Below are positions 1-38,361 of a stretch of 64,000 nucleotides of DNA, one piece after another (position 1 is the first letter of the stretch; every line of letters starts with the position of its first letter). The notes beneath the pieces were generated by a model. The model was not told the DNA's origin. It was given only the letters and a program-made list of their open reading frames with translations, and ran no database searches. Source of the DNA: Paenibacillus daejeonensis DSM 15491 (GTDB lineage Bacteria > Bacillota > Bacilli > Paenibacillales > Paenibacillaceae); assembly GCF_000378385.1 (NCBI RefSeq), contig NZ_KB899660.1, forward strand, positions 868,001 to 932,000. The letters run 5' to 3'. The position numbers were made by a program, and so were the translations under genes.

Positions 1-2022
1 AACATCCGTGTAGCTGTCTTGCTGACGCTGACTGCTCTCCCGGTCACGCACAATGATCCAATAGGAGGTCTTGCCTCCGAACTGCACCTGCGCAGCCGTC
101 AGCTCCACCTCAAGCACAGTTCCATCCAGTAACGTCAATGTCTCAGACATCGATGTGAGCTGCTCTGTGGAATGCTCCAGACGATCCAGCTCGGAGAGCA
201 GCAATGTCTCTCCCTCATTGTAAAATAATTCGTCAATTCGCTTGCCTACCATGGTGTGAGAATCCTGCGCCCGGAATAACCGGGCAGCCCGTTCGTTACA
301 GTACACAATCTCCTTGTCCGTCAAGGTAAAGAACGCGGCTGACGAAATCTCCATCAGTTGCATGTACCGCTTCTCGTTTTCCTTGATAATGCGCATATTG
401 AGCAGCGCCTTCTCCTCTGCCTGCAAGAGCTGATGCTCCGTTCGCCGGAGCATGACGCTACTAAAATCCGGCATCACACGACTCTCCATCTCACGCCATG
501 GCAGAGAAGTCGACTCCACCACCTCCCGCCATTTCTCGAACGATTTGCGAGGGGATAGACGCACCCCGTCGTTCTCCTGAATGACAGCCTTGGCGGGGTC
601 GCCGGCCCAATCCACAATCTGGATGACCTCAGGGCGGAACCAGATGATAAATTCGTTATGCTCAGTTGCAAGCGCCAAATACATGACACCCGATGCCAAA
701 TGTTTGTATTCCCGTGCGGGTTCAAATTCCTTGCTGAGTCGGGACGTATGATAGACATGGTCTACCGCCTGATCCGACAGCCAGGCTGCGAGCTCCTCTA
801 CCTCACCACGACCAGGGGTCGAGCCGAACAAGGTTAGCTCACCCTGATAACAGACGGCTGCCCCTGATGCCTTCATCAACTCAAGCAAAGCAGACTCTGA
901 GGCTTTCAGTCGCTTCATGACAGCGGCGGCTGTGGTGTTGCCAATGAAGATACTGGAGAGCTGATTGACCCTGGTCTTCAGTTCAACCTCTTCCTGATAG
1001 TCATCAAGCTGCTGTCGTTGATAGAGCTCGTTGGAGAAGAAGGCTCCCAGGAAATTGCACAGATTGCGCATCCGATGGGTCACATACTTGACCGAATTAT
1101 GATGGCATGTAATCAGTCCCCACAGCTTGCCTTCATGAATAAGAGAGATCGTCATTGTCGCCTGCACGCCCATATTGTGCAAATACTCAATGTGCAGCGG
1201 CGACACGCTTCTCAAGGTGGACAAGCTTAGATTGAGCGGTTTGCCGTTCTGGGGATGCAGCACCGGCAGAATCGGTACCGGCTGATAGCTCACATCGACA
1301 ATCGTACGCAGCCAGTTCCGCAGGTAGAGCTCTCGTGCTTGTCTGGGAATATCCGAGGCTGGATAGTGATGCCCCAGAAACGGCTCCAGTCCTTTTTTCT
1401 TGGCCTCGGCGATAACCTTGCCATTCCAGTTGTCGTCAAATTCATAAACCATCACCCGGTCATAACCAAGAATAAGACGCAGCTGCTCTGCCGTGACCTG
1501 GCTCGCCTCAAGCCTGCTGCCAGTCTGCTTAATAATATTGAAGAACGTCTGAATCCATTCAAAATCGTTCTGTTCCGTGGAAGCCTCATCGTCCCCCGCC
1601 TCCAGCTCCAGAATGAGCGTATTGTCACTCTCATGCATAATGGCGAAAAAAGGCTTGTTGCCTGAAGGCGTCTGCAGCGTCACATGCATGTAATTCAGTG
1701 CGGAGGGAATCGAGCGGTTGCGATACAGCTTGACCATATTGTCCAGCTCCTGCGCAGGGACGAGCTCGCGCAAGCTCATGCCCAGCATCAACGCATGTTC
1801 GATGCCGAGCACCTGCTCTGTATTCGTACTGCACTGAATGATTGTATAATCTTCTGTGGAAACGGCCAGCAGGACGCCATGCGGCTGTATGCTGCCTGGG
1901 ATATGGATAGGTTCCTTGTCGCAATTGGTCAGGTCGATCGGATCCTTGAGGATATAATCGCCCTCGGTGAGGAGCGTACGGTTCAGCAGCTCTTTGTTGT
2001 TCTTGTTGCTCGCATCAGACAT
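1..2022 (-). CDS. bphP: Bacteriophytochrome (photosensory protein), C-terminus cut by window edge
   Basis: Red/far-red light receptor that binds biliverdin. The 674 visible codons show the full photosensory core. The chromophore Cys34 lies in NCDKEPIHIPGSIQPHG at the start of the PAS domain. The GAF domain (about 150-320) has PASDIP (221-226), His277 in SPLHIEYLHNMGV and a second His in ITCHH. The PHY domain carries the tongue motif PRKSF (491-495). A further PAS-like domain follows from about residue 560. The output domain lies beyond base 1; a histidine kinase is usual in the family but cannot be seen here. The start ATG follows a GGAA-type ribosome site 29 bp after the heme oxygenase stop, so the two are probably co-transcribed. 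No track ORF covers it because it is open at the edge; I translated it directly. Confidence 0.93.
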   Translation of the reverse strand, partial: MSDASNKNNKELLNRTLLTEGDYILKDPIDLTNCDKEPIHIPGSIQPHGVLLAVSTEDYTIIQCSTNTEQVLGIEHALMLGMSLRELVPAQELDNMVKLYRNRSIPSALNYMHVTLQTPSGNKPFFAIMHESDNTLILELEAGDDEASTEQNDFEWIQTFFNIIKQTGSRLEASQVTAEQLRLILGYDRVMVYEFDDNWNGKVIAEAKKKGLEPFLGHHYPASDIPRQARELYLRNWLRTIVDVSYQPVPILPVLHPQNGKPLNLSLSTLRSVSPLHIEYLHNMGVQATMTISLIHEGKLWGLITCHHNSVKYVTHRMRNLCNFLGAFFSNELYQRQQLDDYQEEVELKTRVNQLSSIFIGNTTAAAVMKRLKASESALLELMKASGAAVCYQGELTLFGSTPGRGEVEELAAWLSDQAVDHVYHTSRLSKEFEPAREYKHLASGVMYLALATEHNEFIIWFRPEVIQIVDWAGDPAKAVIQENDGVRLSPRKSFEKWREVVESTSLPWREMESRVMPDFSSVMLRRTEHQLLQAEEKALLNMRIIKENEKRYMQLMEISSAAFFTLTDKEIVYCNERAARLFRAQDSHTMVGKRIDELFYNEGETLLLSELDRLEHSTEQLTSMSETLTLLDGTVLEVELTAAQVQFGGKTSYWIIVRDRESSQRQQDSYTDV

Positions 2023-28608: not shown

Positions 28609-29313
28609 CTAAGACTTCTCTTGAATCAGTCCATACTTTGTCTTGACCCGCTCCAGCTTCTCCAGCATGGGTCGTGCCAATACCAGCAGGAAGAAGACCG
28701 TCGCCGCGGCATGAACCAGATCGAACCAGAAGCCGGAAATGTAAACCGTGGCCAGGATCTCCCAGGAAAACTGGGGACTGAACATCAGATGCGAGCCAAA
28801 ATTAATGATGCCGCCATAGATGACTAAGGTCGCCAGCCCGCCGAAAACGCACAACACGGAACGAGTAGGCAGCTTATCCCGGCGCCGAAAGATGAGACCC
28901 GCCAGAAAACCAATTAACCCGAAACAGAACATCTGCCAAGGCGTCCATGGCCCTTGACCGAAGAAGAAGTTGGATACGAAACCTGCAAGTGCGCCAACCA
29001 GAAAACCTGCTTCCGCACCCAGGCTGACCCCGGCAATGATTACAATCGCGGTCACCGGCTTGAACTGCGGCAGCATGAAAAAAGCCGCCCGTCCGGCTAC
29101 CGCAAGCGAAGCCATCACAGCAATGGCGATGAGCTCCCTCGCTTGCGGCTTGCGCCGTTCGAAGATAAGCGCAAACGGGATCATGGTGTAGAGAATAATT
29201 AGCAGGCTAACAAAATAATAGCGGCGGTCATTTAAGAGATAGATGCCAGCCCAGATGGTGGCCGGGATAATCACCAGAATAATGGCTGCAGACCATAGCG
29301 TGCGGCGGCTCAT
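28609..29313 (-). CDS. ECF transporter substrate-binding (S) component, probably cobalamin
   Basis: Membrane substrate-capture subunit, 234 residues and about six helices; GVSLGAEAGFLVGALAGFVSNFFFGQGPWTPWQM is the S-component region shared by CbrT/CblT-like proteins. The correct start is the ATG at 29313, which has an AGGAGGAG site and overlaps the stop of the ATPase gene (ATGA); the open frame upstream is read-through. It is the last transport gene of an operon under a cobalamin riboswitch, which is the main ground for assigning vitamin B12 as substrate. Confidence 0.88.
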   Translation of the reverse strand: MSRRTLWSAAIILVIIPATIWAGIYLLNDRRYYFVSLLIILYTMIPFALIFERRKPQARELIAIAVMASLAVAGRAAFFMLPQFKPVTAIVIIAGVSLGAEAGFLVGALAGFVSNFFFGQGPWTPWQMFCFGLIGFLAGLIFRRRDKLPTRSVLCVFGGLATLVIYGGIINFGSHLMFSPQFSWEILATVYISGFWFDLVHAAATVFFLLVLARPMLEKLERVKTKYGLIQEKS

Positions 29314-31055
29314 CGGGTGGTCTCCTCCTGACAGTGGCGAATGACATCCTCCACACTCACTGCTTCCCGCCACAGGTCGCGGGCGATCCGGTTGGCCGCT
29401 GTTGTATAGAAGCTGCTCCCCGCAAAAAACTCCCGCACCGCGCCCTCAGCGATCATCGCACCGTCAAAACAAAGCGCGCACCGATCGGCATAGCTGGCGC
29501 AGAACTCAATATCATGCGAGACGAGGACAACCGTTACCCCCTTGGCCTGCAACCGCCGGAGCAGGTCCGCCAGTTTCTCCTTGAAAAACGCATCCAGTCC
29601 CTTGGTCGGCTCATCCAGCAGCAAGATCTTAGGCTCTAGCAATAGCACCTTCGCCAGCGCTGCACGCTGCTGCTCGCCTCCACTTAGGTCGTAGGGATGC
29701 TGATCCAGCAAGTCTTCCAGCTCAGCGAAAGCAATTACCTCCTGAATGCGGTCTTGCCGCGCCTGTTCATCCAGCTTGCTGTCACGCAGCATATCCGTAA
29801 GCTCCAGGGCAACCGTCTTCTGAACGAAGAGCGTCTGCGGCTGTTGGGGAAGCACCGCAAGTCCACCGTGGAACAGCTCCTTGGGACGAACCTTGGCAGG
29901 ATCTCGTCCCTCTACTCGGACTTGGCCACGATAAGGTCTGAGCAATCCTGCCGCCAGTGACAAGGTCGTTGATTTACCCGCACCGTTACCGCCCAGGATG
30001 GCATATAGCTGCCCAGGCTGAACATCGAATGAAAGTCTCTTGAGAACGTCAGCACCATGCTTCTCATAGCGGAACCATACGTCACGGAATCGCAGCGCTG
30101 GAACTAGCGCTTGTTTCGCTACCACGCCAGCGTCCGGGTTCACGTCCCTCGCAGCTGCCGTCTCCGAGCGGGTTTGTGAAGAAGCCCCTTCGTGCTGCCC
30201 GCTTCCGGCTGGAGCCACCTGCTCTTCAGCCAGGTGCGCCAGGAGCCAGCCGCGCCCGTCCCGTACCGTTAGTGGAGTAACCAGCTTGCTGCCTACTCCA
30301 GCATGGATCCGCACAGCGGATGGCATGGCCCGGAACATCGGATGCTGGAGCCGTCGAAGCTCTTCTGCCGCCTTCAGCGGCGCACCATCCGCTACAATGC
30401 GGCCATGCTCCATCACTACCAGCCGATCCGTAATCGGCAGCACTTCTTCCAGCCGATGCTCGGTCAGAATAATCGTGGTGCCCAGTTCACGGTTGATACG
30501 GGCCAGCGTGCCCAGGAAATCCAGCGCCGCAATCGGATCCAGTTGGGACGTGGGTTCGTCAAGAATAAGCACAGACGGCTGCATTGCCATGACCGAAGCC
30601 AGCTGCAGCAGCTGACGCTGGCCGCCGGACAATTCCGAAACCGCTGCGTGAAACCAGTGCTGGATGCCGAAGAAGCTGGCCATCTCCGCCACCCGCAGCC
30701 GGATCGTCTGTTGGTCTATACCCAGACTCTCCAGGCCAAAGGCAAGTTCATGCCATACCTTGTCCGTTACGACACTGTTGTCAGCACTCTGCTGGACAAA
30801 GCCAATCTCGGCTGCCTGGCGCCGCGCATCCACCGATGCTAAGGGTTCACCAGCATACAGTATTTCCCCTTCGCGCCTGCCATGGGGAGTCAAGACCGGC
30901 TTCAGCTGGCGTAGAAGTGTGCTCTTGCCGCTGCCGGAGCGGCCACACAGGGTCAGGAACTCCCCGGTCATGATATTTAAATCAATGTGTGCCAAGGCAG
31001 GAGCTCCCTGCTCTGGGAAGCTGAAGCTCAGCTCGCGGATACGGTAGATCGCCAT
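29310..31055 (-). CDS. ECF transporter energy-coupling ATPase, two ABC domains fused
   Basis: Powers the ECF transporter. 581 residues join the A and A' ATPases that many Firmicutes encode separately. Domain 1 (about 5-240): Walker A GRSGSGKS, signature LSGGQRQ, Walker B SVLILDEPTSQLD. Domain 2 (about 335-560): Walker A GGNGAGKS, signature LSGGEQQR, Walker B ILLLDEPTKGLD. A Ser/Gly/Ala-rich linker separates them. I start at the ATG at 31055 because of the GGGAGG site 7 nt upstream. It overlaps the T-component end by 28 bp. Confidence 0.93.
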   Translation of the reverse strand: MAIYRIRELSFSFPEQGAPALAHIDLNIMTGEFLTLCGRSGSGKSTLLRQLKPVLTPHGRREGEILYAGEPLASVDARRQAAEIGFVQQSADNSVVTDKVWHELAFGLESLGIDQQTIRLRVAEMASFFGIQHWFHAAVSELSGGQRQLLQLASVMAMQPSVLILDEPTSQLDPIAALDFLGTLARINRELGTTIILTEHRLEEVLPITDRLVVMEHGRIVADGAPLKAAEELRRLQHPMFRAMPSAVRIHAGVGSKLVTPLTVRDGRGWLLAHLAEEQVAPAGSGQHEGASSQTRSETAAARDVNPDAGVVAKQALVPALRFRDVWFRYEKHGADVLKRLSFDVQPGQLYAILGGNGAGKSTTLSLAAGLLRPYRGQVRVEGRDPAKVRPKELFHGGLAVLPQQPQTLFVQKTVALELTDMLRDSKLDEQARQDRIQEVIAFAELEDLLDQHPYDLSGGEQQRAALAKVLLLEPKILLLDEPTKGLDAFFKEKLADLLRRLQAKGVTVVLVSHDIEFCASYADRCALCFDGAMIAEGAVREFFAGSSFYTTAANRIARDLWREAVSVEDVIRHCQEETTR

Positions 31056-31918
31056 CGCCATTCCTCCCATCCGTTAAGCAGTAGCGGTAGTGAACAGAGC
31101 AATCCATAGGCGGTGTAAACTGTCATGGAGCGCCAAGTTATGTCCGGGTATAGAATGGAGGGAAAGAACCGGATCGTATTCTCCCCCGCCGCCGCTCCGA
31201 GCCCAACGATACCGAGCAGCAGCAGCAGGGTTAGCAGTAGTCGGCTATCCCGTGTCCCCCAGCGGAACAGTGAGAAGCTGGTGCGCCCGGGTAATCCATA
31301 GCCTCTCGCCTTCATACTGTCAGCTGTCTCCATGGCGTTCTCCAAGGCCCAGGTCGTTAGAATCGAGAGAATGGTCATGCCGTTTCTGGCTCGCACCAGC
31401 CAATTTCCCTGCGTCACATCCCTGCCAATACAGCGCTGGGCAGCCGAGATTCGCTTCGCTTGCTCCACATAGCGAGGCACAAATCGCAGCGACATCGTGA
31501 GCAGCAAGGATAGTGCCGGCAGTATGCGCCCCAGTAAGTAGACCCATTTGTCCGAGGTCATGACAACATGCAGACAAGAGAACCAAATGATGACCGTGAC
31601 GAACGTACATGCTGCTGCCACGCCGTACAGCAAGGATTCCAGCGTCACCGGATTTCCACTTCGCAGATAGAACAGGATGGTAACCCCCGCGTGGTTAAAA
31701 GCCGGATTCAACACAGCAGCAAGAAGCAGCAGGGGGACCATGCCGAGCAGCAGAAAACGAACGGCCCGCCTCCCCTTGAGCAGTAGGACGTAGGCTGCCG
31801 CAGCTGTTAGAGCCAGAAGCTGAAAAACCGGATGCATGAACAGCATGCTAAATATCAGCACCGCGACAAAATAGATGGCTTGGATCAAAGGATGGCTGGA
31901 GCTAAAGTGATCCCTCAT
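31028..31918 (-). CDS. ECF transporter transmembrane (T) component
   Basis: Scaffold subunit linking S component and ATPases. 296 residues with about five to six membrane segments. The coupling-helix signatures are present: AQRCIGRDV before the cytoplasmic helices and the conserved A-R-G motif in ADSMKARGYGLPGRTS. The upstream frame extension is low-complexity read-through. The ATG at 31918 overlaps the stop of the DUF4430 gene (ATGA), so the two are translationally coupled. Confidence 0.93.
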   Translation of the reverse strand: MRDHFSSSHPLIQAIYFVAVLIFSMLFMHPVFQLLALTAAAAYVLLLKGRRAVRFLLLGMVPLLLLAAVLNPAFNHAGVTILFYLRSGNPVTLESLLYGVAAACTFVTVIIWFSCLHVVMTSDKWVYLLGRILPALSLLLTMSLRFVPRYVEQAKRISAAQRCIGRDVTQGNWLVRARNGMTILSILTTWALENAMETADSMKARGYGLPGRTSFSLFRWGTRDSRLLLTLLLLLGIVGLGAAAGENTIRFFPSILYPDITWRSMTVYTAYGLLCSLPLLLNGWEEWRWRSTVSAS

Positions 31919-32943
31919 CCTCCATTGCCTCCAGCAGCGCCATCGCCCCCGACATCCCGGCCAAGATCCGTCGTATAGACCCACTCGACCACATCCCCGT
32001 CCTCCAGGGCGTAGCGACTGCTGCCATAGTTGGGAAACCAGCCGTTCACCTTGTACATCCATCCGCTGAGCTCACCTGCATCGAATTCATAGAGGTTGTT
32101 AATCCCCTCGATATAATTGCTGTTATAAAGGGGAGTCATGACGAATTCCATGTGGATCTTGTGCTTCTTCATCTCACGCAGCAGCACATCGAACACGGAT
32201 TCTCCCTCATAGAACGTGACTTTCTGCGATTTGAAAATGATACCGTCCTGCGGAAGCACCTCCAGCTTGTTCGGATCCAGCCGGTCCAGCTTATCCAGCA
32301 GTGTCGTTGCGGAGACAGACAAGGTGGCGGTCAACGCCTTGTTCTTGTCCACCTCGGCTTCCTGCCATTCGACTGGCGGGGCTTTGCCCTCCGGCACTGG
32401 ATCCGTCTGATACTTGTCCTTGCTACCCGCTGCTGGTGCTTCTGGAGTCTTGACAGGTGGCTTGGCCGTCTCCGGTGCAGACGCCTTGGGCGGTGTAGTA
32501 GCGGGCTGTTCAGAAGGAGCTGCTGAGTTACCCGGGGTCTCAGGAGTTGTTGGTTGAGTCTCTAGGTCAGACGATGCCGTTGAACCGGATTCGTCTGCCG
32601 CAGGAGTTTCTGGGGCTGTAGCCTCTCCAGCCCCGCTTTCGCCTTCATGTTCGTCAGCGTCAACTCCCGAATTCCCGGCTGCATCCAGTCCAGTCCCGGC
32701 TGCGTCCGCGGCTGAGCCCTCGGCTGCATCCGGCTCTAACTCTCCGTCTGTCATGCCACCTGCTATCGAGATCGAATCCCGATTCCCACTGTCAGCTGAG
32801 TTTGTCTCTTGCGTGTTCTCTATAGCGGCACTCTCGCTTAACGGCTCGGAGGGTTGGGACTGCCCCCGACCCTCCCAGATGAAGACCACCACCAGAATCA
32901 AGACGATGACGGCCGCTACGATCCAGCGATTGCGTGTATTCAT
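31915..32943 (-). CDS. Membrane-tethered DUF4430 (transcobalamin C-terminal-like) protein
   Basis: 342 residues: one N-terminal membrane anchor (RWIVAAVIVLILVVVFIW, about 6-23), then a ~170-residue Ser/Pro/Ala/Glu-rich stalk long enough to cross part of the wall. A C-terminal DUF4430 domain follows (about 210-330: SVFDVLLREMKKHKI; ELSGWMYKVNGWFPNYGSS; DVVEWVYTTDLGRDVG). This domain is the one named for similarity to the C-terminal domain of transcobalamin. It lies between the large surface protein and the ECF genes, consistent with a relay of cobalamin from the surface to the transporter (inference). Confidence 0.88.
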   Translation of the reverse strand: MNTRNRWIVAAVIVLILVVVFIWEGRGQSQPSEPLSESAAIENTQETNSADSGNRDSISIAGGMTDGELEPDAAEGSAADAAGTGLDAAGNSGVDADEHEGESGAGEATAPETPAADESGSTASSDLETQPTTPETPGNSAAPSEQPATTPPKASAPETAKPPVKTPEAPAAGSKDKYQTDPVPEGKAPPVEWQEAEVDKNKALTATLSVSATTLLDKLDRLDPNKLEVLPQDGIIFKSQKVTFYEGESVFDVLLREMKKHKIHMEFVMTPLYNSNYIEGINNLYEFDAGELSGWMYKVNGWFPNYGSSRYALEDGDVVEWVYTTDLGRDVGGDGAAGGNGG

Positions 32944-33009
32944 TACTTATGCACCACCTAACAATAGCAAAAGCAAGGGCAATACTTGCCCCTGCCGTCG
33001 CTTCGAGAA

Positions 33010-36000
33010 TTAGCTTGCATCGGATAGATCATACAAACGGCTCTTGCCTGTCGCAAAACGCTCATAAGCCACCAGAGCATACAATGCCTGATCGGTCGCC
33101 ATCACATCGACTTCCCCTGGCTTGGCCCCACCATTATCCGGTCCTCCGGGGAGGATATGATAGAAGCCGCCACCGGTAGCGGCGAAACCTAGCAGCGCCT
33201 CCAGCAACGAGTGACCATTTTTAATAAAACGTGGATCCGTGTGTGGATCGATGGACAGCCCGGTCAAGGCTACGACCACTTGCGCGGCACTCTCTGAATT
33301 GGAGGCGTTCCAGCTGAGGTAGCCGCCGTCTGCCCCTTGCGCGCCAGAGAGCCAGGCGATGCCGCGATCGATAGCTGCTTTGACTCGTGCTTGACCCGTG
33401 TAGTAAGGCGTTAAGGCCTGAATCGCCATTGCAGTAACGTCCGGATCTGCCTCGCTTGAGCTGCTATCCAGGGTCCATCCGCCGCCCGTAATCTCCCGGT
33501 TCAGAATAAAATCAACCAATTGTTGACGGCTGGTTTGTGTCCCGCTACCCGAATGCGCAGGAATTTCGTATCCCCTGCTGTCCAGTGCGATGAGAGCGAA
33601 GATCGGACCGTTGATCCCCTGTTTGATCAATGTGTCATAGTCAGCCAGCGGCTGCAGCAGATTATAGCCCGCTACATCATCTACAGGCTGTCCCAGTGCG
33701 GTCAGCGCCAGAATGACACGGTCGTACTCGGTATATTTTAAGCGGTGCAGGACCCCGTCCTTCTCCTTCAGGGTCTGCTCCAGGTTAGTCAGATAACGAT
33801 CATAATAAGCGGATGGTACTTGCTCCTGCGAACGTGCCAGCCCGAACACTGTCCACTCCCCACCTACACTGGTAACGATGGGATTGGTGACGGTGCGCTG
33901 CAGATAAGCAGCGGCTTCGGCGATGGTGCGCTGGGTCTGTTGCAACATAGCATCCGGTGCCGGGACCTCTGGCTCGGGAGCTGGAGGGAGCGGCGCCCCC
34001 TCCAGGTAATCAAACGCCCGTACCGCTACAACGGCAGCCATCTCACGGCTCACCTGCTGCTGCGGGTGGAAGCGATTGGCGTCGCCAGTCATTAGTCCGG
34101 CAGCGTAGACAGCTAGCACTTCCGAACGGGCCCATGTAGCAATTTGTGCCGCGTCCGTCAGAATGGTGCTACCGGATGCAGCAGGCAACTCCAAGGCTCT
34201 GGCGATCATGACCGCCATCTGCTCGCGGGTAATGGTCTGCTGCGGTTCAAAGCGGTTGCCGTAGCCGTTGACCAGATCCGCTTCATACGCGGCTTGGACA
34301 TAAGGGTGGAACCATTGGCCTGCACGCACATCGTCAAATGCACTCGCAGAAGACGAGGACAGCGGCAGTTCCAGCAGCTCGCTCAACAGCTTGGTGAACT
34401 CAGCACGCGTGATGCTGGCCTGCGGACGGAACAGCCCTTCGCTGCCTTGCAGCCAACCATATTCCGTGGCGCGGGCAATGCCCTCATAAGCCCAGGCAGC
34501 CATGCTGGCCCGGTCATCGTAGATGGCATTGGCATCGGTTGGTTCGGGTTGCGGCTCCGGCGCAGTAATCGACTCCACCGTATAGGTAATAAATGCGGTA
34601 GCCGAGGTGGTACGCAGCACCAGGTCCTGGCCCTGCACGAAACCATATACCGCTCCTGGCTGCGACGCTTGTGCCGCTTGCTGACTTGCATAGACGCGCA
34701 GCTGCTGCCACTCGTCGCCCGCTTGGTAAGCTGCCTGTTGCTTGGCGCCGCCTTTAATCGTTACGCTGAGCGGCTGATCAAACGCAGCACGTTGCTCGCC
34801 TTGGTTCAGCGTGAACGCACGACTGAGCTTCGTTTGTTCGTTCTCTTGTGCGAGAATGGCGGCTTCGCGTTGCTCTAACGTTGGTTCAATGGCATGCAGC
34901 AAACGAATGGCTGGACCACCAGCCGTCAGTTTGGTACCCTCCGCAATATGAAGCGTCAGCTCCCCGCGTGTCGCTGTCAGCTGTGGAATGCTGGAAGCAA
35001 CAGCCGCCAGGTCCAACAGTACAGCGTGCGTGGATGACGGGACGTTGACCGTCAAATGCTTGGCTTTCTTATGCTCCTCTGTCAGCTTGATCGTATAATC
35101 TGCTGTCAGCGTGGAAGGAACAGTGAGCGCTTGTTGCTCGGAAGCTCCGCCTCCGCCAGGAATGCCTCCGCCAGTTCCAGGATTGGTACCTGGGCCTGGT
35201 GGGTCCGTACCAGGCCAAGGCGCTTGTCCCAGGTCAGCGCCAAGGTTGGTTGTGTATCGCCACTGGATACTGTCACCGCTCTTAACGATATAGGCACTCG
35301 CACCAACATTCGGATACGTTCCGTTGACATTGTACATCCAGCCGCTGCCTTCACCATGGTCGAATTCACCGTCACCGGCAATCGACTCCACATAGACACT
35401 ACCGAATTCACCGCTAAATCTACTCTCATAAGGGATATTACGTGCATCCAGCGTCCGCTGCAATACACTCCAGGCCGTATCGCCCGCTTGCAGGGTAACA
35501 GTGGTTGGCGCGAGTACAGTACCTTTGCCAATCGTTTGTTTGTCTACCGAAACCGTAACGGTTTGTGTAGCTGGAGGCGTTCCAGGATTGGTTCCGGGAT
35601 CACCGCCACCCCCGCCGCCTGACGAATCTTCAGGAGACAGCTTATAGACGACGAAATCAGTAAAATGCTTCGTCTGGATGACCAGGCTGCCAGCCGCATC
35701 GTAGGAGAAGACATCTGCTCCGCTTGCTTCTCCGGCAGCTTGACTATCGAAGTGCTGGATCAACGTCAGCTCATCCTGCTCGGCAAATGCAGCGCCATGC
35801 TCGGCAAGGCCCGGATAGGTCAAGGTCACATAGCTGTCAAACGCCATGCGGCTCTCGCCGCCCAAGGCAAACTGGCGGACAATCGCTTCCAGCTCCTGTC
35901 CTTCGGCCAGCTTGTCCGTTATCTGAGCTGCTGTAATTGAGGCCGGACCGAATAGTGTCAGCGCTTGGTCTGAGCCTGAAGTCACTTCACTGCCTTGCGG

Positions 36001-37896
36001 CAGAACTACGGTTACACCGCCTTGATTTACCTCGATGCGCGGCAGTTCACCAGCTGGCAGCTGGAGACGAACCGCTGCGGTACGGCCCTCCGCAAGCTCG
36101 ATGCGGACATCCTTGTCGCGATCTGCCGCTTGCACTGCAATGACATACGCCCGCTGATCGTTCGGCACTGTGATGACCGGCTGTTCACCTGTCGGCAGTG
36201 TCAGCTCAATCGGCGGCAGACCGCCCGGCAGGCTATCCGGCGCATCGCTCATATCATAGAGACGATTCTGACCTTTGAGGAAACGGTCATAGGCGACCAG
36301 GGCGTAGGTGCACTGGTCGGTTGCCATACCATCAGGTCTTGTTTGAGTCGAAGAATGAACGAACCCCCCGCCTTCTACCGCAAACCCCATCATAGCATCT
36401 AGTGGAGAATTTCCATTCTTTATAAAGCGTCGATCTGTATGAGGATCAATACCCAGGCTAGTTAAAGCAACAATAACCTGGGCTGGGCTCTCGGGATTTT
36501 TTACGTTCCAGCTCTCGTATCCACCATCTGACTTCTGATTATCCGATAACCAAACTAGCGCTCTGTCTACCGCAGCCTTTACATTAGGGTGAGTTTCATA
36601 ATAAGGAGCAAGACTCTGAATAGCCATTCCTGTCATATCAGGGTCTGGCCCGTTTACACCAGATCCGAATGCCCATCCTGCGGCGGCTTCTGTCCCCCTT
36701 TTAACTTCTCTAGACAAAACACCTTCGATTAACATTTCTCTTGTAGCCTGCTTCTCACCTTCATGGAGAACAGGCAGATCATAGTTACGTGTATCTAATG
36801 CAATGAGGGTAAAAACGTAAGCATTAATTCCTTGTTTGTAATTTGTGCTATCTGCCATAAAGACTCTTAAATCATAGCCCCCGAGATCTCTAAAATCGGC
36901 ACCAATTGCCGAAAGGGTTAAGGCCCGTCTAGCGTATTCTGTGTTTGTAGTACCAAAACTGCCAGATTGTAAAATTGCTTTGGCTTCTATACTTTTATAA
37001 TAGTTCTGGTAGTATCCCTCTGGAACCTGATATCCCGAGCGAGCCAATGTGAAGACAGACCATTCTTGTTCGTCTATCGGCGTAGGCTTACTACTTACTA
37101 AGTACGCTAGACTGTTCTCAAGATGACGCTCTATTCGCTCTCTCTCATCGGAGTGATGCTTGGCCAGCGCCGCACTTAGTTTTGCCAGAGCACTGCCTAT
37201 GCTTTCAGCCGAGCTCTCGATATTTACGGCAACTGCCATCGCTTCCTCATACGAGGTCCGCAGCTCGGCATTCTCCATCAGCTTTATATATTTCGCATCG
37301 CTATTGATTTCCGCAAGCTTGGAAGTCAGCTCATCCTTATCTGCGGGCTCAATATAGTTTTCTTCATAGCCAAACCCTATATCAGCCCCCCATCCGTGCA
37401 CCGTATATTGGTAACGAATCACATCACCGTTTTGAGGCTGATAGGCTGCCATGCCTACTGATGGCAGAACATGATTCACCGTGTACATCCAGCCCGACAT
37501 ATCCGTATAATCGAAATCGCTCAGCCATGCTTCGTTCTGACGCGTTCCGATCGTGTTGGCGTGTTCCAGGATGTAAGCCGGAATTTGCACCGCCCCTGCA
37601 TTGGGATCATGAACAGCTCTCAAATAAAATCCATTGCTGGCATTTCCCATATAGGTTAATTTTTCATCGCCAATCGCCCGCAGCAGCACATGAGCTGCCG
37701 TCTCCCCAGCATAATAGGGGACTTGAATTGGCACTTGAATATAGCCTTGGCCAAGGGTGAATTTCTCCACCGCAACTGTTACATAACCTGTCGCCGCGAC
37801 CTCTGCTGCTTGTACATTTCCTGAGGATACTCCCGGCAACACTAGCGACCAGATCATACTCAGCATTAAAAATAAAGCTAGAAATTTGCGTTTCAT
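33010..37896 (-). CDS. 1628-aa SLH surface protein with two DUF4430 domains and two alpha/alpha-barrel modules; candidate B12-capture protein
   Basis: Signal peptide ends near NVQAAEVAA (about 31). DUF4430 domain 1 is at 36-175 (DMSGWMYTVNHVLPSVG) and alpha/alpha-barrel module 1 at about 255-550 (WSVFTLARSGYQVPEGYY; DPDMTGMAIQSLAPYY). A beta region follows to about 757, a poly-Gly/Pro linker, then DUF4430 domain 2 at 777-890 (SGWMYNVNGTYPNVGAS). A second Pro/Gly linker and beta region run to about 1110. Three SLH units at about 1120-1300 anchor the protein. Barrel module 2 is at 1315-1628 (WTVFGLARSQEQVPSAYY; DPDVTAMAIQALTPYY) and closely matches module 1. Prenyltransferase-like barrel plus DUF4430 is the layout of animal intrinsic factor/transcobalamin. 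It is the first gene after the cobalamin riboswitch. SLH domains in the interior are unusual. Ligand binding itself is inferred. Confidence 0.88.
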   Translation of the reverse strand: MKRKFLALFLMLSMIWSLVLPGVSSGNVQAAEVAATGYVTVAVEKFTLGQGYIQVPIQVPYYAGETAAHVLLRAIGDEKLTYMGNASNGFYLRAVHDPNAGAVQIPAYILEHANTIGTRQNEAWLSDFDYTDMSGWMYTVNHVLPSVGMAAYQPQNGDVIRYQYTVHGWGADIGFGYEENYIEPADKDELTSKLAEINSDAKYIKLMENAELRTSYEEAMAVAVNIESSAESIGSALAKLSAALAKHHSDERERIERHLENSLAYLVSSKPTPIDEQEWSVFTLARSGYQVPEGYYQNYYKSIEAKAILQSGSFGTTNTEYARRALTLSAIGADFRDLGGYDLRVFMADSTNYKQGINAYVFTLIALDTRNYDLPVLHEGEKQATREMLIEGVLSREVKRGTEAAAGWAFGSGVNGPDPDMTGMAIQSLAPYYETHPNVKAAVDRALVWLSDNQKSDGGYESWNVKNPESPAQVIVALTSLGIDPHTDRRFIKNGNSPLDAMMGFAVEGGGFVHSSTQTRPDGMATDQCTYALVAYDRFLKGQNRLYDMSDAPDSLPGGLPPIELTLPTGEQPVITVPNDQRAYVIAVQAADRDKDVRIELAEGRTAAVRLQLPAGELPRIEVNQGGVTVVLPQGSEVTSGSDQALTLFGPASITAAQITDKLAEGQELEAIVRQFALGGESRMAFDSYVTLTYPGLAEHGAAFAEQDELTLIQHFDSQAAGEASGADVFSYDAAGSLVIQTKHFTDFVVYKLSPEDSSGGGGGGDPGTNPGTPPATQTVTVSVDKQTIGKGTVLAPTTVTLQAGDTAWSVLQRTLDARNIPYESRFSGEFGSVYVESIAGDGEFDHGEGSGWMYNVNGTYPNVGASAYIVKSGDSIQWRYTTNLGADLGQAPWPGTDPPGPGTNPGTGGGIPGGGGASEQQALTVPSTLTADYTIKLTEEHKKAKHLTVNVPSSTHAVLLDLAAVASSIPQLTATRGELTLHIAEGTKLTAGGPAIRLLHAIEPTLEQREAAILAQENEQTKLSRAFTLNQGEQRAAFDQPLSVTIKGGAKQQAAYQAGDEWQQLRVYASQQAAQASQPGAVYGFVQGQDLVLRTTSATAFITYTVESITAPEPQPEPTDANAIYDDRASMAAWAYEGIARATEYGWLQGSEGLFRPQASITRAEFTKLLSELLELPLSSSSASAFDDVRAGQWFHPYVQAAYEADLVNGYGNRFEPQQTITREQMAVMIARALELPAASGSTILTDAAQIATWARSEVLAVYAAGLMTGDANRFHPQQQVSREMAAVVAVRAFDYLEGAPLPPAPEPEVPAPDAMLQQTQRTIAEAAAYLQRTVTNPIVTSVGGEWTVFGLARSQEQVPSAYYDRYLTNLEQTLKEKDGVLHRLKYTEYDRVILALTALGQPVDDVAGYNLLQPLADYDTLIKQGINGPIFALIALDSRGYEIPAHSGSGTQTSRQQLVDFILNREITGGGWTLDSSSSEADPDVTAMAIQALTPYYTGQARVKAAIDRGIAWLSGAQGADGGYLSWNASNSESAAQVVVALTGLSIDPHTDPRFIKNGHSLLEALLGFAATGGGFYHILPGGPDNGGAKPGEVDVMATDQALYALVAYERFATGKSRLYDLSDAS

Positions 37897-37962
37897 TTCT
37901 TGTTTTCCATTCCTCTCTCACACGCTTGTAGTTGTTCCTGCCGCCAGTGGTCCTGCAAACGC

Positions 37963-37994
37963 AAAAATCCCCGCATTCTCTCAAGAACGCGGGG
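37963..37994 (-). terminator. Expression-platform terminator of the cobalamin riboswitch
   Basis: On the minus strand CCCCGCGTTCT pairs with AGAATGCGGGG across a short loop and is followed by ATTTTT. It lies between the aptamer and the first gene, as expected for transcription attenuation when cobalamin is bound. Confidence 0.85.
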
Positions 37995-38059
37995 TGTCGC
38001 AGCAAACCTGACGGGTTGCATACCAAATAAACACCTTCCTATCCATCGTAGAATTGTGT

Positions 38060-38240
38060 ACTGCAAGCTGACAGGCAGGTCTTCTGGCTCAAGCGTCATC
38101 ATCCGTACCGCCTTCCCGGTTACCCAGTGGCATTTGGCACGAACTCTTCTTTTACAGCGGCGGGACCGCGCGGGAGTTACACCCGCTTCCCTTTTAACCA
38201 GTCCATGATCTCAATATCATCCCTGGCACCTGTAGCTATA
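38060..38240 (-). promoter_or_regulatory. Cobalamin (adenosylcobalamin-class) riboswitch
   Basis: Read on the minus strand, all hallmark blocks occur in order: GGTGCCAGGG at the 5' side, GGAAGCGGGTGTAACTCCCG, the GCCGCTG loop, GCCACTG, GGGAAGGCG, and the B12 box AGCCAGAAGACCTGCC (38074-38089). A terminator follows. It controls the surface protein and probably the DUF4430 and ECF genes, switching them off when B12 is plentiful. Confidence 0.97.
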
Positions 38241-38361
38241 TACGATTCAATTGTCTTGCCTATCATAACGAATGTAGCAAGATTTGTCATGTACTTTTGG
38301 TCACAAGAGAGGAGGCATTAATGTGTCTTGAACGCAAGAAAGTAACTCATTGGCATGCTTA

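Follow-up and report, generated by a model that had tools for sequence, protein, structure and literature searches.

Through computational analysis of a 64-kb stretch of Paenibacillus daejeonensis DSM 15491 (64,000 nucleotides of contig NZ_KB899660.1, positions 868,001 to 932,000; hereafter the window), a five-gene operon behind a cobalamin riboswitch has been identified, which probably serves B12-repressed corrinoid scavenging by surface capture, tethered relay and import through an energy-coupling factor (ECF) transporter. All five genes lie on the minus strand, 3' of the riboswitch and a terminator-like hairpin, and encode successively a large S-layer homology (SLH) protein (gene 1), a small DUF4430 protein (gene 2), EcfT, a fused EcfAA and EcfS (Table 1). 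At low intracellular cobalamin, we infer, the riboswitch would let transcription proceed past the terminator. The S-layer-anchored protein, with two pairs of a DUF4430 domain of the transcobalamin beta type and an alpha6-alpha6 barrel, would then bind corrinoid at the cell surface; the membrane-tethered DUF4430 protein would concentrate it beside the transporter and hand it to a CbrT-like EcfS, and the dedicated EcfAA-T module would power the import. The firmest part, very likely correct, is cobalamin or corrinoid import by the ECF module. Extracellular corrinoid binding by the DUF4430/barrel modules is likely, and the ordered relay from the surface protein through the tethered protein to EcfS has an even chance. 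The regulation class, the importer identity and the folds rest on computed results, and we infer that both domains hold the corrinoid jointly and in which direction it is handed over.

In a phmmer comparison of EcfS with the PDB, the best chain was 6fnp_A (E 2.3e-13, residues 75-250 of the 254-aa reading), followed by a chain at E 0.14. The entry 6FNP is ECF-CbrT of Lactobacillus delbrueckii, for which ATP-dependent uptake of both cobalamin and cobinamide is reported (PMC5997447); chain A is taken to be CbrT, judged from its 182-aa length. CbrUVT is given as a B12 transporter in metabolic reconstructions and as a system for cobyrinate diamide uptake in one review (PMC6593275, PMC8123684). Since EcfS matches CbrT, and CbrUVT already figures among B12 transporters, the importer as such belongs to a known type; what appears to be new is the joining of a CbrT-type ECF importer to predicted transcobalamin-like capture modules. 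The ECF importer named in an earlier model-made interpretation of the letters alone (the sequence-only reading) is thereby borne out. No Pfam family matched the window EcfT, even with E allowed up to 1, and PF02361 (CbiQ) is matched above cut-off by the corresponding proteins of Tissierella (L071, E 5.2e-9) and Ruminococcus bromii (L136, E 1.5e-9). The likeness to ECF-CbrT (6FNP) and the predicted CbrUVT covers the homologous EcfS, the A and A' subunits, a probable T subunit and the predicted B12 transport role. However, the ECF module of CbrT also serves FolT2 (PMC5997447), whereas AA and T of the window are encoded in the operon of EcfS itself, and two extracellular DUF4430 proteins are added. 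A cobalt-only CbiMNQO system has been rejected, as EcfS matches CbrT and no CbiM family occurs among the Pfam and TIGR matches.

In the host genome (G000; 7.46 Mb in 36 contigs) no match to CbiC was found, a control search having matched in 7 of 14 genomes; the corrin ring is therefore probably not made de novo, leaving the cell dependent on uptake of B12 or a late precursor. Four host open reading frames (ORFs) contain a B12-binding domain. A second RF00174 riboswitch (70.4 bits; C1:400000-410000, L010) heads a corrinoid-salvage operon with an ATP-binding cassette (ABC) importer. Its CobT, CobU-type, CbiB, CobS, CobD and CobQ genes are matched above cut-offs, which points to late-pathway salvage from cobyric acid synthase onward. 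Of the importer components, the binding protein resembles BtuF and the permease BtuC, each scoring under the equivalog cut-off, and the ATPase passes the cut-off of a heme-transporter model; this BtuFC-type importer is a possible second B12 route. The salvage operon, the CbiQ-type T subunit and the cobyrinate diamide assignment of CbrUVT would also fit a cargo other than cobalamin, either a precursor corrinoid or some other cobalt species (cobinamide, cobyrinate diamide or cobalt). This reading is unlikely, since the characterised homolog CbrT takes, by the account cited above, cobalamin and cobinamide alike, and a cobalt-only role would presumably not need large extracellular folds of the transcobalamin type.

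Regulation of the operon by B12 is indicated by the RF00174 aptamer, the sole Rfam match above gathering thresholds within the window and far above its own cut-off of 31.5 bits. The terminator-like hairpin downstream of it presumably forms the expression platform, and the leader (38060-37955) has a fold z of -2.95; over the window as a whole the hairpin scan gave no excess (9 hairpins found, against a mean of 9.9 in shuffles). Riboswitches of the cobalamin class usually let transcription pass the terminator when intracellular cobalamin is low. The B12 riboswitch that the sequence-only reading had placed ahead of the operon is thus confirmed. The co-directional, overlapping gene set which it also described holds for the common strand and for two ATGA overlaps, at gene 2/EcfT (start 31918) and EcfAA/EcfS (start 29313), but not for genes 1 and 2, which are separated by 66 bases. 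The overlaps, as read from the junction sequences, follow the pattern of translationally coupled operons, and the coupled starts 31918 (EcfT), 31055 (EcfAA) and 29313 (EcfS) are more likely than other start readings. A second terminator-like hairpin between genes 1 and 2 may be an attenuator, lowering transporter expression relative to the surface protein.

The product of gene 1 combines three SLH domains with two barrels of the squalene-cyclase kind and two DUF4430 domains, the first of which aligns with just the C-terminal half of the Pfam model; the SLH part matches the S-layer protein Sap in the PDB sequence comparison. A structure model of residues 30-556 (DUF4430-1 and barrel 1) matched the transcobalamin beta domain 5np4, a domain solved with cyanocobalamin bound (E 5.6e-4; template-modelling (TM) score 0.60 by target); this match carries no model range, DUF4430 being the strand-rich part of the model. 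In the same kind of fold comparison, the barrel matched the alpha6-alpha6 barrel of intrinsic factor and transcobalamin. Sequence comparisons gave no such link. PF01122, which we take to be the animal intrinsic factor/transcobalamin family, had no row for the whole gene 1 protein (E up to 1) or for its two module stretches (E up to 10), and was absent from the matches listed for the module stretches of 26 relatives (25 of 36 families); the DUF4430 and barrel profiles, searched against the PDB, did not retrieve the animal carriers. The likeness to these carriers that had been proposed from the letters is therefore upheld for both folds and not for the sequences; the three-stage route of the sequence-only reading and a cobalamin-sized cleft in the modules are conjectural. 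The pairing is not as in the animals: module 1 of the window has DUF4430 before the barrel, relatives show both orders, and the barrel is nearer to terpene cyclases than to animal carriers in both sequence and Z.

Like transcobalamin, intrinsic factor and haptocorrin, the window protein combines an alpha6-alpha6 barrel and a beta domain of the same fold in one chain. In contrast to them, it puts the beta domain first, has no sequence match to the animal family, is anchored to the S-layer or membrane and carries two modules per protein. We tentatively propose, at slightly less than even chance, a widespread Gram-positive counterpart of these carriers under B12 riboswitch control, in which DUF4430 and barrel of S-layer proteins would sandwich corrinoids and pass them to a tethered DUF4430 protein and on to a CbrT-type importer. 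If this is true, the animal carriers would either descend from this two-domain design in rearranged form or have come to use it again by convergence, which raises a testable question about their origin. A function is thereby suggested for DUF4430, a Pfam domain of unknown function.

Surface B12 capture ahead of a transporter has a parallel in BtuG, BtuH and BtuJ (DUF4465) of Bacteroidetes, which are under B12 riboswitch control. The Bacteroidetes proteins are built differently, BtuG being a beta-propeller and DUF4465 a beta-jellyroll (PMC6977713, PMC13398666), and their partner is the outer-membrane BtuB. One Firmicutes btuH homolog is located close to an ECF-like transporter (PMC8941943). Our literature search, which lay mostly outside subscription journals, so that an earlier mention is possible, found no bacterial transcobalamin-like B12 capture system.

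Conservation of the cassette was assessed by a barrel-alignment search of contigs from 84,980 species, the best 80 of at least 582 related stretches yielding 75 distinct loci. The full set of barrel, small DUF4430, T, AA and S was present on one strand in 56 of the 75, a count that scores same-strand presence with profiles built from matches in these same loci. In 54 of 75 loci, a DUF4430 or barrel ORF is preceded at no more than 1.2 kb by the riboswitch core motif. The motif profile derives from 13 riboswitches, of which 9 of these loci supplied 11; among the 66 loci contributing no sequence to it, 46 show the motif. Among the 21 loci without the motif, the first cassette ORF begins less than 400 bases from the start of the stretch in eight. 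An Rfam gathering scan of 16 loci placed a cobalamin or AdoCbl riboswitch upstream in 10; in the other six, it lay downstream of the cassette (L075), no upstream room was available (L103) or none was found (L109, L112, L129 and L136). As the sequence-only reading had proposed to check, this gene set thus recurs behind B12 riboswitches in other genomes. Among the sources of the loci are Paenibacillus, Cohnella, Lysinibacillus, Tissierella, Lutispora, Clostridium, Terrisporobacter, Ruminococcus bromii, Lachnospiraceae and Oscillospiraceae, with metagenome bins labelled Coriobacteriales (full set) and Bifidobacteriaceae (contig ending after T). Conserved, easily tested genes are thus also available in R. 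bromii, Clostridium and gut bins of Lachnospiraceae and Oscillospiraceae.

The relatives also bear on another reading, in which the ECF part imports B12 and the SLH/DUF4430/barrel proteins are co-regulated adhesins or scaffolds that bind a B12-bearing partner (a cell, polysaccharide or carrier protein). Their large proteins vary in the number and order of DUF4430 domains and barrels, and Cadherin-like domains match 11 of 26 module stretches, as would suit such a role. It is nevertheless quite improbable: of the 56 full loci, 54 place the small DUF4430 ORF between a barrel ORF and T or AA, and the domain matched by the module model was solved in complex with cyanocobalamin. The 342-aa protein of the window has, by eye in the translation, a hydrophobic N-terminal segment, followed by a long linker and DUF4430. 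A simple scan of 61 small DUF4430 ORFs from the 75 loci gave a transmembrane-like N-terminus in 50, a lipobox in seven and neither clearly in four; since a hydrophobic N-terminus occurs in 50 of the 61, a membrane-tethered DUF4430 protein beside the transporter appears to be the rule.

The best barrel matches in both sequence and fold are squalene-hopene and drimenyl diphosphate cyclases, and the sequence alignment takes in the DXDD region of class II terpene cyclases. Across 56 aligned barrels the first Asp (D164) is kept in 54 and the second (D166) in all. Barrels of the window are, in contrast to these cyclases, joined to DUF4430 and SLH domains. An ordinary terpene cyclase has been rejected, because the last Asp of DXDD is replaced in 56/56 barrels, mostly by Ile or Met, and because the predicted location is extracellular; some other chemistry may still apply. 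Despite this resemblance and the two near-invariant Asp, a catalytic role for the barrel, whether of the class II terpene-cyclase type or as a different alpha/alpha-barrel enzyme modifying for example extracellular corrinoids or lipids, is very improbable, given the missing last Asp, the predicted S-layer-bound location and the B12 riboswitch upstream.

DUF4430 is closely associated with B12 regulation. In the host family (148 genomes), barrel 1 and EcfS occur together in 62, the barrel only in three, EcfS only in three and neither in 80, these tallies including weak or broken matches (e.g. G100, G114, G124 and G138). In 40 hand-picked genomes, 32 with and eight without an EcfS match, 87 of 93 DUF4430 domains have a same-strand cobalamin riboswitch at most 12 kb upstream (about 0.25% expected; 7 of 104 riboswitch rows below the Rfam cut-off); none occurs in the eight without EcfS. 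A phylum-wide draw of 119 genomes, which is the less biased test, had DUF4430 in 37; after removal of two previously counted genomes, RF00174 is found no more than 12 kb upstream of 62 of 76 domains, spread over 29 of 35 genomes (about 0.9% expected; 3 of 129 riboswitch rows below the cut-off). Both counts are defined by distance and strand, and one counted domain (G000 C9:262222) has opposite-strand genes between it and the riboswitch. Several of the 14 misses in the phylum draw are near a contig start. In view of the association in this draw, the idea that DUF4430 is a general S-layer domain without relation to B12 has been rejected. No RF00174 match occurs in three DUF4430 genomes of the draw (G195, G204 and G240), so that DUF4430 is not bound to B12 everywhere. 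Stand-alone DUF4430+barrel proteins of about 1740 aa are encoded at G047 C10 (L150 8004-13259) and G058 C1:1751000-1755600 (L151), with no cobalamin riboswitch found in the 15 and 14 kb examined, respectively. An SLH region is visible by eye in the L150 protein.

Table 1. Features of the probable corrinoid operon in the window and of the second DUF4430 locus of the host genome
Feature	Position	Strand	Basis or remark
Cobalamin riboswitch aptamer (RF00174)	38057..38248	-	cmscan 111.1 bits, E 5.7e-27, full model 1-189
Terminator-like hairpin, presumed expression platform	37969..37994	-	11 pairs + T tail
SLH surface protein, 1628 aa (gene 1)	33010..37896	-	Pfam DUF4430, SLH x3, SQHop_cyclase_C
Gene 1 domains, in residues	DUF4430-1 ~36-175, helical linker, barrel 1 ~255-555, DUF4430-2 805-882, SLH x3 ~1134-1292, barrel 2 ~1313-1622		
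Second terminator-like hairpin, between genes 1 and 2	32972..32996	-	hairpin scan
Membrane-anchored DUF4430 protein, 342 aa (gene 2)	31915..32943	-	Pfam DUF4430, C-terminal, residues 247-324
EcfT (CbiQ-like)	31028..31918	-	TIGR02454 E 0.049, below cut-off; ATG 31918 overlaps gene 2 stop
EcfA-EcfA' fused ATPases	29310..31055	-	TIGR04520 332 bits (cut-off 315), E 2.1e-99; two ABC stretches
EcfS substrate-binding subunit, CbrT homolog	28609..29313	-	PF07155, PF12822
AdoCbl riboswitch + 633-aa SLH+DUF4430 gene	G000 C9:265000-267200 (L009 10025-12170)	-	RF01482

The host genome has five DUF4430 matches at two loci, three in the window operon and two on contig C9. At the latter, an adenosylcobalamin (AdoCbl) riboswitch of 69.1 bits (cut-off 50) lies directly upstream of the 633-aa SLH+DUF4430 gene, and no cobalamin riboswitch was found upstream of a 329-aa SLH+DUF4430 gene. 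The N-terminal domain of the 633-aa protein (residues 30-262) was not matched by any Pfam family, and nothing in the PDB matched it at better than E 0.026, which leaves a DUF4465-type B12 binder unsupported. In the relative G068, AdoCbl riboswitches of 84.9 and 57.2 bits accompany two DUF4430 genes, and a layout similar to that of the 633-aa gene recurs there (L153 10397-12528). Elsewhere in L153 (2753-9512, plus strand) an AdoCbl riboswitch (57.4 bits) precedes genes for a 422-aa RCC1-repeat and a 1692-aa RHS-repeat protein; a beta-propeller is likely here, behind a B12 riboswitch, which recalls BtuG.

Three further observations concern the layout of the cassette. In Clostridium tagluense, three cobalamin riboswitches lie within 3.6 kb upstream of the cassette (L106 1793-5320, plus strand). 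EcfAA and EcfS share one open frame in L103, L112, L123, L131, L134-L137, L139, L141 and L143, which suggests a fusion of both ATPases and the S subunit in those Clostridia and one Coriobacteriales bin. In the window, a bacterial PH-domain gene (28536-28099, minus strand) starts about 70 bases past the EcfS stop on the same strand; the hairpin scan predicted no terminator between the two, and this gene may be the last of the transcript.

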